A stretch of DNA of 64,000 bases, taken from Xanthomonas sp. DAR 35659. Lineage in GTDB: Bacteria; Pseudomonadota; Gammaproteobacteria; Xanthomonadales; Xanthomonadaceae. The first letter of the stretch is position 1. Every line of letters begins with the position of its first letter. Both the position numbers and the translations under genes were made by a program. The notes beneath the pieces are model-generated. The model worked only from the letters and a program-made list of their open reading frames with translations, had not been told where the DNA came from and did no database searches. Positions 4,543 through 37,915 of this stretch are shown here, piece after piece. Where the stretch lies: NCBI RefSeq assembly GCF_041242975.1, contig NZ_CP162488.1, positions 537,501 through 601,500 of the forward strand, read 5' to 3'.

Positions 4543-4776
4543 GGTGGGCGAATGACCAAATGACAGGGGGGGCTTTGGCAGTCCTTCGCAATGTGCACGA
4601 TCACCGCAGCCAACCCCCTGTAGGAGCGACTTCAGTCGCGACGAACGAAGTCGCATCAAATCAGGTGCCGTTCCCTGTGAGGACGGGGAATCTCTGTGCT
4701 GGGGCAGGTATGCCTAGCGTGCTCCGGCGCTATTGCGGCTGCCATTGCGGTTGCAATTTTGAGAGCCAAAGACAGA

Positions 4777-12374: not shown

Positions 12375-12440
12375 GTAGGAGCGGCTTCAGCCGCGACAGG
12401 CCTTACCGAGAGATCCTGTCGCGGCTGAAGCCGCTCCTAC
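12375..12440. repeat. REP-like palindrome inside the pca operon
   Basis: Perfect 26-bp arms at 12375-12400 and 12415-12440, built on GTAGGAGCGGCTTCAGCCGC, flank a 14-base loop. The element lies between pcaG and pcaB. A stable RNA hairpin here could lower or stabilise expression of one side of the operon. Confidence 0.9.
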
Positions 12441-12543
12441 GGCCCGGCGTTGGCGACCATCCGGCGCAGCCCGCATCCGTCGTGGCGTAGGCGCTACCCT
12501 TGCCTGGCCCGCCGCGCCGGCGCGGCCTGCACAGAGATCCCGC

Positions 12544-23629: not shown

Positions 23630-23700
23630 CTGTAGGAGCGGCTTCAGCCGCGACAGGCCTTGCCGATACCCCCTGTCGCGGCTGAAGCCGCTCCTACAGG
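23630..23700. repeat. REP-like palindrome between efflux operon and mnmG
   Basis: Inverted arms of about 28 bp based on CTGTAGGAGCGGCTTCAGCC and its complement surround a short loop. It lies between two convergent genes and could act as a bidirectional RNA hairpin. Confidence 0.9.
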
Positions 23701-28918: not shown

Positions 28919-28989
28919 CCTGTAGGAGCGGCTTCAGCCGCGACGGGCATCCCCGGGAACGCCTGTCGCGGCTGAAGCCGCTCCTACAG
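28919..28989. repeat. REP-like palindrome between SnoaL-like gene and bioC
   Basis: Inverted copies of CTGTAGGAGCGGCTTCAGCC with long perfect arms around a 14-18 base loop. It separates the convergent SnoaL-like gene and bioC. Confidence 0.9.
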
Positions 28990-35533: not shown

Positions 35534-36259
35534 ATGGATATCCCTGTCAACTTCGCCAGTGACTTTCAGGTTGACGGAAGCTGGCGGCGCCTGCAGCGCT
35601 GGCTGCTGCCGGAGCGCTGCCTGGTCTGCGGCGAACGCGGTGCCGCCGGGCTGGACCTGTGCCCGGCCTGCCGCGTCGCGCTGCCCTGGAACGTCGGCGC
35701 CTGCATGACCTGCGCGTTGCCGCTGCCGGCGCTGGATGCCGGCCAGGTCTGCGGCGCCTGCCAGCGCAAGCCGCCGCCGCTGACGCTGGTCGCCAGCGCC
35801 TGCGTGTACGCCGCGCCGGTGGACGGGCTGCTGCGCCGCTTCAAGTTCCACCAGGATCTGGCCGCCGGGCGCCTGCTGACGGCGCTGCTGCGCGCGCGCT
35901 GCGGCGATCTGGCGCGCCCGCAAGCCTTGCTGCCGGTGCCGCTGCATGCGGCGCGACTGCGCCAGCGTGGCTACGACCAGGCGCTGGAACTGGCGCGGCC
36001 ATTGGCGCGCGCGCTGGGCCTGCGCTTGTGCGACGGACTGCAGCGCGTGCGCGCGACGGCGCCGCAATCCGAACTCGATGCGCGCGCGCGTCGGCGCAAC
36101 CTGCGCCATGCGTTCGCGGTCCGCGCGCCGTTGCCGCAGCACGTGACCCTGATCGACGACGTGATGACCACCGGCGCGACCCTGCACGCCGCCGCGCAGG
36201 CGCTGCGCCGCGCCGGTGTGGCGCGGGTCGATGCGTGGGTGGTGGCGCGCGTGCCGTGA
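35534..36259 (+). CDS. comF: ComF-family phosphoribosyltransferase-like competence protein
   Basis: The 241-aa protein has N-terminal zinc-ribbon cysteines (CLVCGE, CPAC, CMTC, CGAC) and a C-terminal phosphoribosyltransferase fold with [13 protein letters not shown]. ComF/GntX proteins serve DNA uptake or use of DNA as carbon source. An upstream GTG at 35528 is an alternative start. It is divergent from bioB. A dispersed palindrome interrupted by an IS110 element follows. Confidence 0.9.
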
Positions 36260-36315
36260 GCGTGGGGGTCTATCGTGTGGGGACCCTGGTGGCTGGTAAT
36301 ACCTTCGGAAAGTGT

Positions 36316-36383
36316 CCTGTAGGAGCGGCTTTAGCCGCGACGGGCTTTACAAGGAACGCCTCGTCGCGGCTAAAGCCGCTCCT
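36316..36383. repeat. REP-like palindrome disrupted by the IS110 element
   Basis: The left arm (36316-36342, starting CCTGTAGGAGCGGCTTTAGC) pairs with 36362-36383. The last five bases of the right arm (ACAGG) are found on the far side of the insertion at 37613-37617. Joining 36383 to 37613 restores a perfect 27-bp inverted repeat. Confidence 0.92.
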
Positions 36384-36399
36384 TGTATCTGGACATGAG

Positions 36400-36610
36400 G
36401 CCCACGTGGCCTTATGTCTTCCGACTGATCATCGGAGCAGTGCGGGAAGCCCAGTCGCTCCTAAAGCCACGAGCTTGCATTGTAGATTGGCTCCCGCATT
36501 GCATATGCTGGCCCATCGGTGTCCGTACGGTATCCAGAGTCCGCCGCAGGCGTGAACTCGCATCCACAAGGCAGGACCGGGCGCAGCGGTGATCGTGTTC
36601 ACCCTACGAT
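36400..36610 (+). ncRNA. candidate bridge RNA of the IS110 element
   Basis: Ends are approximate. A 5' hairpin CCGA...TCGG (36421-36435) is followed by a target-binding loop enclosed by GCGGG/CCCGC (36442-36446/36493-36497). The loop holds CGCTCCT (36456-36462), identical to the target left of and through the core, and TGTAG (36481-36485), complementary to CTACA across the core. A second, donor loop holds ACGGTATC (36527-36534), matching the right end of the element, and ACAAG (36566-36570), complementary to CTTGT at the left end. The order target loop then donor loop is that of IS621. Confidence 0.72.
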
Positions 36611-36623
36611 GGAGGAATTCCCC

Positions 36624-37595
36624 ATGTCCCCAGTCGTCGGTATCGACGTCGCCAAACACCGTTTCGACCTGGCCATCGACCTGGCCAACGGCAAGTACCG
36701 CACCAAGGCCAAGCTTTCCAACGATCCGAAGGGGTTCCAGGCCCTACGGACGTGGCTGCAGAGCCATGCGCAGGCGGACAGCTGGATCGTGATGGAAGCC
36801 ACCGGCACCTACCACGAGGCCCTGGCTGAGTTCGTGCACGCCTTGGGCTACCGCGTATGCGTCCTCAACCCGGCGCAGACGGCGCTGTATGCCCGCAGCC
36901 AGCTGACTCGGGTCAAGACCGATCGCAGCGATGCCAAGCTGATCGCCAGCTACGGCCTGCGCCATGCGTCGCAATTGCGGCCGTGGCAGCCCGATCCGCC
37001 GGCGCTCAAGCACCTCAAGGCGCTGGTGCGTCGGCGCGAGGACCTGCTGCAGATGCTGCAGATGGAGCGCAACCGCCTGGACGTCGCCGCGCCGGTGGTG
37101 CGCGCCTCGCTGCTAGAGACTATCGGCCAGCTGCAAGCGAACATCGCCCAGATCGAACGGGCCATCGACGACCAGATCGACCAGGATCCTACCCTGCGCG
37201 GGCAGCGCGAGCTGCTGGTCAGCATCGACGACATCGCCGAGAGGAGCGCGGCGCTGTTGCTGGCCGAGCTCGGCGACGTGGAGCGCTTCTCCCAGGCCTC
37301 GGCGGTGACCGCCTTCGCCGGGTTGAATCCACGGCTGCAGGAGTCCGGCAAGCGCAAGGGGCAGGCCTGCATCTCCCGTACCGGCTCCCCACGCCTGCGC
37401 GCCGGCCTGTTCCTGCCGGCCTTGGTCGCCATGACCCACAACCCGGTCGTGCGTGCGCTGAAACAACGCCTGCGCGAACGCGGCAAGGCCAACAAGCAGA
37501 TCATCTGCGCCGCCATGCGCAAGCTGCTGCATATCGCCTACGGCGTGCTCAAATCGCGCACGCCCTTCGACCCTCAAAAGGCCCTTGCCTGTTAG
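36624..37595 (+). CDS. IS110-family transposase (DEDD recombinase)
   Basis: The 323-aa protein has an N-terminal RuvC-like DEDD domain with Asp8 (GIDVAK), Glu58 (VMEATGTYHE), and Asp100/Asp103 (KTDRSDA). A coiled-coil-like middle follows, then a C-terminal Tnp_20 domain with the probable catalytic Ser255 in TGSPRLR. All key residues are present, so the enzyme may be active. The ATG at 36624 follows GGAGGAATTCCCC. IS110 recombinases are guided by the bridge RNA and join DNA at a dinucleotide core. Confidence 0.95.
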   Translation: MSPVVGIDVAKHRFDLAIDLANGKYRTKAKLSNDPKGFQALRTWLQSHAQADSWIVMEATGTYHEALAEFVHALGYRVCVLNPAQTALYARSQLTRVKTDRSDAKLIASYGLRHASQLRPWQPDPPALKHLKALVRRREDLLQMLQMERNRLDVAAPVVRASLLETIGQLQANIAQIERAIDDQIDQDPTLRGQRELLVSIDDIAERSAALLLAELGDVERFSQASAVTAFAGLNPRLQESGKRKGQACISRTGSPRLRAGLFLPALVAMTHNPVVRALKQRLRERGKANKQIICAAMRKLLHIAYGVLKSRTPFDPQKALAC

Positions 37596-37612
37596 AGGGG
37601 AAGACGGTATCT
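37585..37612 (+). promoter_or_regulatory. half-promoter in the right end, completed only in the circular form
   Basis: TTGCCT (37585-37590), 17 bases, then TATCT whose last T of a -10-like TATCTT comes from the left end (36384) when the element circularises at CT. This would drive transcription into the bridge-RNA region, as described for IS110 circles. Confidence 0.45.
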
Positions 37613-37915
37613 ACAGGGCAAACCGCATCTGACGGGATTGTGGCGAAAGCAGATTGTTGGAGGTGCCCTGGAAGCGCGCGCATGGGCGGTGCGCTTGCCT
37701 GTCGCGAGAAAACGCCGGTGCGTGCTGCGGTGCGCGCGCGTCGGCCGACATGCCGCGGCGGCGCTATGCGCCAGCGGGACGATGGGGGCCGCCATGCAGA
37801 GAAGCGCCTGCGTTCATGGCGACCTCGGCTGGCGCCCGGGTCTGTGCGCATGAACGATGTGCAGACGTGCGCGGCTTTATGATCGTCACTCGGGCAACAA
37901 CGACAGGAGTTTGCG
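37613..37915. other. intergenic region after the IS element, no gene seen
   Basis: It starts with the displaced end of the palindrome (ACAGG). The rest is GC-rich sequence without a convincing ORF; a ribosome-binding site ACAGGAG for the next gene lies at its end. Confidence 0.5.

Follow-up and report, generated by a model that had tools for sequence, protein, structure and literature searches.

The window analysed here, a stretch of 64,000 nucleotides from Xanthomonas sp. DAR 35659, very probably carries an apparently intact IS621-type element of the IS110 family, whose insertion into the GTAG head of a REP would be guided by a bridge RNA; this reading combines the sequence with what has been established for IS621. 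The element very probably uses its own guide RNA for insertion at one exact spot of the REP. What the sequence provides is the site specificity, the match between guide and target and the way this match changes across relatives, the conserved donor guides, the protein family and the aligned catalytic residues.

The element, its recombinase and its REP target

The element has a length of 1,229 bp (36384-37612 or, equivalently, 36382-37610) and is composed of a 240-nt non-coding left end, a gene encoding a 323-aa recombinase, and a 17-nt right end following the stop codon (Table 1). It interrupts the right-hand arm of a REP pair, and the core dinucleotide CT is present at both junctions. Removing it in silico, in either register, leaves two 27-bp arms that form a perfect inverted repeat around a 19-nt loop (36316-36342 versus 36362-36383 plus 37613-37617), exactly as the first-pass annotation had described it, in letters as well as in coordinates.

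Table 1. Features of the element, its insertion site and its predicted bridge RNA (positions are those of the window).
Feature	Position	Strand	Basis
REP pair left arm, CCTGTAGGAGCGGCTTTAGCCGCGACG	36316..36342	+	27-bp inverted repeat, perfect once the element is removed
Right REP arm to the insertion point (left target and core CT)	36362..36383	+	flank comparison of copies, inverted repeat
Core dinucleotide CT, left junction	36382..36383	+	sequence, copies
IS110-family element	36384..37612	+	same ends in five full copies of the genome and in other full-length genus copies
Predicted bridge RNA, approximate span	36405..36582	+	guide positions and IS621 numbering (available text of PMC11208158), offset 21-22
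Predicted bridge RNA, 5' stem-loop TCCGA..TCGGA	36420..36436	+	consensus structure from 27 left ends; both bases differ in two pairs
Target-loop closing stem, 5' side	36437..36447	+	present in the window copy
Putative left target guide (LTG), GTCGCTCCT	36454..36462	+	eight identities and one U.G wobble to GCCGCTCCT
Hairpin within the target-binding loop, AAGC..GCTT	36464..36476	+	consensus structure; both bases differ in two pairs
Putative right target guide (RTG), GTAG; extended TGTAG at 36481-36485	36482..36485	+	sequence, comparison of loci
Would-be handshake guide AT, complementary to the base pair of letters preceding the donor core	36486..36487	+	sequence; handshake guides as in the available text of PMC11208158
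Target-loop closing stem, 3' side	36492..36502	+	present in the window copy
Putative left donor guide (LDG), ACGGTATC	36527..36534	+	equals the element's right end; invariant in 27 aligned left ends
Putative right donor guide (RDG), AT, 3 nt, CAAG	36562..36570	+	no variation in A, T or CAAG across 27 left ends; IS621 spacing
Recombinase, 323 aa; D8, E58, D100, D103, S241	36624..37595	+	Pfam domains, ISCro4 and IS621 chain matches, aligned residues
Core dinucleotide CT, right junction	37611..37612	+	sequence, copies
Right target ACAGG, completing the right REP arm	37613..37617	+	flank comparison of copies, inverted repeat

The genome, comprised of one contig of 5.4 Mb, contains five full copies that are 99-100% identical, together with one 3' (right-end) remnant of about 280 bp. 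All five full copies are inserted at GCTC-CT-ACAGG in one orientation relative to the REP, preceded by GCCGCTCCT and followed by ACAGG. The remnant (L006, G000:C1:1442899-1443178) is followed by ACAAGGAGC and not by ACAGG, and on the left it is truncated close to a repeat of another kind; in copy L002, both flanks appear by eye to be reversed relative to the window copy. When the survey was extended to 20 genomes of the genus, including the strain's own, some match to the element was found in 15, several of these being short fragments only. The copies analysed were the full-length ones of genomes G008, G009, G010, G011, G017 and G018, as well as some partial ones. In the 54 full-length genus copies, a set that includes the strain's own five and excludes the partial copies L006, L086 and L119-L123 and the composite copy L108, the left target reads GCCGCTCCT 51 times, GTCGCTCCT twice and GCTGCTCCT once. 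The first-pass annotation had suggested looking for other copies at the same CT, and this is where they are: 5/5 of the full copies in the genome, and 53/54 of the genus copies with GCCGCTCCT or GTCGCTCCT as their left target. A search of phage records with the element gave no match, while plasmid records yielded one near-full match (a Xanthomonas sacchari plasmid, 82%) and one match of 53 bp. An empty orthologous site was sought through the downstream flank, for which the best matches in relatives start some 200-300 bases in, past the repeat. The neighbouring ComF protein displays 86% identity to proteins named X. translucens, X. tesorieronis and X. graminis, and 96% to a further protein.

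The recombinase possesses two Pfam domains above cut-off, DEDD_Tnp_IS110 (PF01548, 1.5e-32) and Transposase_20 (PF02371, 1e-18), and the only solved structures matched at E <= 0.001 are those of ISCro4 (1.3e-63) and IS621 (1.8e-62). The catalytic residues of IS621 are numbered D11, E60, D102, D105 and S241 (PMC11208158, available text), and the HMMER alignment places them on D8, E58, D100, D103 and S241, respectively. Ser241 sits in an ESG motif, and the S241 of IS621 aligned with it is residue 243 of the deposited chain. The intact DEDD set reported by the first-pass annotation is therefore retained; its catalytic Ser255 was rejected, as was Ser251, because the alignment puts the IS621 serine on Ser241. 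The closest named relative of the protein is an X. graminis transposase (91% identity).

The target belongs to the GTAG-type (RAYT) REPs, in which a GTAG head is followed by a GC-rich palindrome present in high copy (GTAGGAGCGGCTTTAGCCGCGAC), in agreement with the description of GT(A/G)G REPs in the available text of PMC2817692. The expectation that a multicopy repeat would give the element many landing sites agrees with the number of exact AG[C/T]CGCTCCTAC units in the genome, 444 plus 8, and GCTCCTACAGG occurs 202 times versus 8 times for the reversed control. The smaller of the two unit counts (8 vs 444) belongs to the minor GTCGCTCCT variant of the REP. The idea that the wobble U of the left guide widens targeting to this variant was rejected: it is used by 2/54 insertions, the REP itself is rare, and no preference is apparent from the counts.

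The REP is part of a larger mosaic repeat (36252-36315 and 37613-37678), whose right flank is matched from its first base, over 38-66 bp, at 15 other genomic places. Elsewhere in the window the same REP recurs, alone or in inverted pairs, at 4620, 12375-12441, 17396, 23632-23698, 28922-28988 and 43853, the copy at 4620 being the GTCGCTCCT variant. Three Y1 transposase matches were found in the genome; one of them, a possible REP transposase (L133, G000:C1:5251544-5251837), has a REP pair about 150 bp downstream, and around the other two, exact matches to CGCTCCTAC or GTAGGAGCG are lacking over 1.5 kb in either direction. Genome G016 contains 110 AGTCGCTCCTAC REPs (0-27 in the other 19 genomes) but no match to the element.

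Guides and fold of the predicted bridge RNA

According to the available text of PMC11208158, the bridge RNA of IS621 carries its LTG at positions 50-58, its RTG at 77-80, its LDG at 123-130, and its RDG at 157-158 and 162-165. Equivalents are found at element positions 71-79, 99-102, 144-151, and 179-180 plus 184-187, with an offset to IS621 of 21-22 throughout, and the spacing of the donor guides is that of A123-C130 and A157-U158/C162-G165 in IS621. The left end thus fits the published layout of the IS621 bridge RNA, with predicted guides for the target and for the element's own ends. The four segments highlighted in the first-pass annotation, CGCTCCT, TGTAG, ACGGTATC and ACAAG, are all positioned as it stated; the first of them is correct in sequence and too short, the left guide being better described as the 9-nt GTCGCTCCT with one wobble.

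To put numbers on these matches, the 240-nt left end was compared with 20,000 dinucleotide shuffles, in which an exact match of the observed length or longer was found 302 times for the LTG (7 nt), 3599 times for the RTG (5 nt), 98 times for the LDG (8 nt) and 2016 times for the RDG (5 nt), and never (0/20,000) for all four jointly. The RTG and RDG are therefore weak when taken alone, but the set of four matches is not due to chance. This comparison with shuffled left ends had been proposed as a check, and its outcome, together with the common site of the five copies and the match of the guide to its own target, supports the bridge-RNA reading at the level of the letters.

An alignment and a consensus fold were obtained for 27 of 49 distinct left ends. 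The left end of the window copy folds better than its shuffles (z -2.96; 1/200 shuffles equally good), and the consensus fold comprises 35 pairs, 15 of which have both bases altered in one sequence or more. These both-sided changes are located in the 5' hairpin, in the inner hairpin of the target loop and in the donor-side stems, and these parts of the predicted two-loop structure are supported. The stem closing the target loop, described there as GCGGG/CCCGC, is present in the window copy with a length of 11 bp (36437-36447 / 36492-36502). Its arms could not be told from swapped ones, since own arms pair over 7.4 bp and arms exchanged between sequences over 7.0 bp, and in the per-sequence folds 11/25 correctly placed sequences beat at least 49/50 arm shuffles in energy; covariation of the closing stem is therefore unsupported, and it was dropped as a covarying helix. 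In the per-sequence folds of the 27 left ends, the loop was misplaced in L088 and L023 and one base off in L027 and L037; in L020 and L040 the expected target loop did not form.

At the very start of the left end (36391-36419) there is a second strong hairpin, formed by GGACATGAGGCC pairing with GGCCTTATGTCT, which by eye is also possible in relatives. The RE-LE junction carries a promoter-like TTGCCT-17 nt-TATCTT, with two other equal-scoring matches in the same 130 bp; for IS621, the available text of PMC11208160 describes a promoter that is reconstituted at the RE-LE junction. The two Rfam matches listed around the element (E 0.95 and 0.54) lie below the gathering score, with no family near threshold.

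Guides and targets across relatives

A scan of named genomes provided 80 pattern matches for examination, 32 of which encode relatives of the element. These 32 loci are found in Pseudomonas, Stutzerimonas and a Rhodoferax MAG, with recombinases that are 52-65% identical in protein; nine of them, from Pseudomonas sp. BN417, are contig ends cut at the element and hence not independent. Together with the 54 genus loci this makes 86 loci, 10 of which had escaped an earlier pattern and were recovered by direct search. Twelve distinct left target guides are present in the 86 loci, and a guide agrees with its own commonest target at 6.83 of 7 non-core bases on average, compared with 3.61 for the targets of the others (0/100,000 permutations). 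Agreement is far closer for a guide's own target than after swapping, and this comparative evidence is the strongest for guiding by an RNA. Exceptions include L025, whose target has 6/9 identities (plus one wobble) to the guide, and L034, whose guide has G for the core T (ending in CCG).

An inverted repeat of at least six bases lies near the site in 76/82 target flanks versus 1053/3280 random windows, a comparison from which 4/86 loci with short flanks were left out and in which 54/82 flanks represent one Xanthomonas target. Outside Xanthomonas the count is 23/28. It is by this nearby inverted repeat that the targets of the Pseudomonas relatives may be regarded as REPs, and for loci with the GCCGCTCCT guide or the GACCGCCCT guide the repeat was seen in 1/5 and 0/1 cases, respectively.

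The right guide behaves differently from the left one, as it is GUAG in 85/86 loci (AUAG in L024) and the targets read CTAC, the counterpart of the GTAG head of GT(A/G)G REPs, in 85/86 loci (CTGC in L085); being nearly constant, the right guide offers little variation on which a match to the target could be tested. The base 5' of GUAG is U in G000, G017 and G018, where the targets read ACA at 20/20 sites, and C in G008-G011, where 34 sites are divided into 24 ACG, 9 ACA and 1 GCG. The REPs of these hosts differ in a similar manner: those of the U-group genomes G000, G017 and G018 end in ACG 21, 13 and 18 times versus 451, 392 and 579 times in ACA, and those of the C-group genomes G008-G011 end in ACG 161, 253, 169 and 33 times versus 165, 139, 111 and 25 times in ACA. 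With the GCG site excluded, ACG was observed at 24/33 sites of the CGUAG genomes, where 19.1 are expected from the REP background (p = 0.054), so that an independent selection of ACG by the guide is unsupported. Covariation of the right guide was consequently rejected as proof of guiding, since the REP background of the host explains most of the association between U/C and ACA/ACG. The agreement of the U or C with the host REPs is mostly explained by the REPs available, and we keep it as possible co-adaptation only.

One locus of G009 (L108, L129) has a composite structure, in which a REP is followed by a segment equivalent to bases 1-79 of the left end, which stops precisely at the core CT of the guide, then by a full element, and then by ACGG, the expected rest of the REP. 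The junction is located near G009:C1:3588620 (in L129, G009:C1:3584000-3592000). This exact guide-DNA junction was found once in the 20 genomes, and the four one-mismatch matches read AAGTCGCTCCT, the REP variant. The arrangement suggests an insertion into the left guide DNA of another copy, followed by recombination between two copies; a rearrangement made by the recombinase at the same core is the alternative. The bases to the right of the guide's core in the element DNA (AA or GA) mismatch the right guide, which would make this DNA a poor target.

Proposed mechanism, rival explanations and known systems

The proposed course of events takes circle excision, promoter, transcription, the RNA and its ends, handshake pairing and strand exchange from IS621. 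Excision of the element as a circle would join its right end to its left end and is expected to create a promoter at the junction, from which a bridge RNA of about 180 nt would be transcribed from the left end. The donor loop would pair with the element's own joined ends, ACGGTATCT-TGTAT, and the recombinase would exchange strands at CT, so that the element enters the GTAG head of the REP in one orientation. Across the lineage of the element, the right guide remains on GTAG and it is the left guide that varies with the target arm. Whether this amounts to a bridge-RNA lineage specialised on GTAG REPs we rate as an even chance: the right guide would be a fixed copy of the REP head, the left guide would re-evolve to the palindrome arm of each new host, and the U/C extension would fit the commonest REP ending of each Xanthomonas group. 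If guide DNA can itself be hit, as the junction in G009 suggests, guide sequences would in such a lineage be under self-targeting pressure in addition to that of the host repeats.

Site specificity of this kind could also reside in the protein, the recombinase itself recognising the sequence or the hairpin of the REP, as has been proposed for other REP-targeting transposases, with the guide-like segments being incidental. The mostly palindromic nature of the targets, apparent from the counts of inverted repeats given above with their large share of one Xanthomonas target, is what such recognition would lead one to expect. The target, however, follows the left guide through 12 guides, with recombinases in the named relatives that share 52-65% identity with the present one, and the published IS621 system requires the RNA in vitro (PMC11208160, available text); we therefore consider recognition by the protein very unlikely. 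A common site might otherwise have arisen without repeated targeted insertion, through duplicated REP segments or homologous recombination between REPs, for which the multicopy state of the REPs and of their flanking mosaic (38-66 bp of the right flank at the 15 other places) would provide the material. Against this, the flanks past the REP differ between copies in the stretches compared, copies occupy either arm of the REP pair, and the mosaic located to the right of the window copy stands to the left of L002, on the other strand, which leaves duplication or homologous recombination as a scarcely credible explanation. Insertion guided by the element's own bridge RNA is accordingly the reading we prefer.

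Compared with IS621 of E. coli, the recombinase is homologous nearly from end to end with aligned catalytic residues, and the CT core, the donor guides, the guide spacing, the 9-nt left target guide and the GUAG right guide are alike; the published IS621 target ATCAGGCCTAC also ends in CTAC and is located in REPs (PMC11208160, available text). The guides are in the left end upstream of the gene, i.e. the element is not of the IS1111 type. Unlike IS621, the Xanthomonas element has a different left target guide and REP arm, and a U.G wobble at position 2 of the LTG, whereas IS621 is described with a non-canonical pair at G53 (position 4). At 36452, the place of the conserved G48 in the target-loop linker of IS621, the alignment reads C in the 11 Xanthomonas rows and G in most others. 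ISCro4 of Citrobacter rodentium, the best solved-structure match by sequence (1.3e-63), was compared by protein only.

Bridge RNAs with two loops (PMC11208160, PMC11208158), the natural concordance between guide and target in IS110 elements, longer right guides in some orthologues (PMC11208160, PMC11208158), and REP targeting by IS621 (Choi 2003, through papers that cite it) and by other IS110 elements (PMC1525189) have been described in the available texts, so that the present element adds a member to the IS621-type elements. The first-pass annotation had presumed target and guide set to be undescribed; REP targeting with a bridge RNA is already on record for IS621, and only the Xanthomonas target and guide set may be new, a partial literature search having found no paper on it. 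What this contributes is an element whose own genome offers hundreds of matching landing sites, and a series of natural variants in which the guide changes along with the target repeat, both inside one genus and between genera. With such a series, guide evolution, wobble tolerance and right-guide extension become testable on natural rather than designed pairs.

IS110 elements in REPs were previously counted by Tobes and Pareja 2006 (Table 2, PMC1525189, available text) for ISPpu9 (7/7), ISPpu10 (7/7), ISPa11 (6/6) and ISRm19 (4/4), which differ from the present element in their hosts and REPs; the available text of PMC11187229 assigns ISPa11 to the IS1111 type, with its guide RNA region downstream of the gene. 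Closer to the Xanthomonas element are the Pseudomonas loci L030-L035, which share its layout and its target 9-mer GCCGCTCCT but have C in the guide where Xanthomonas has U, and whose site is by eye a REP of the P. putida W619 type (PMC2817692, available text).
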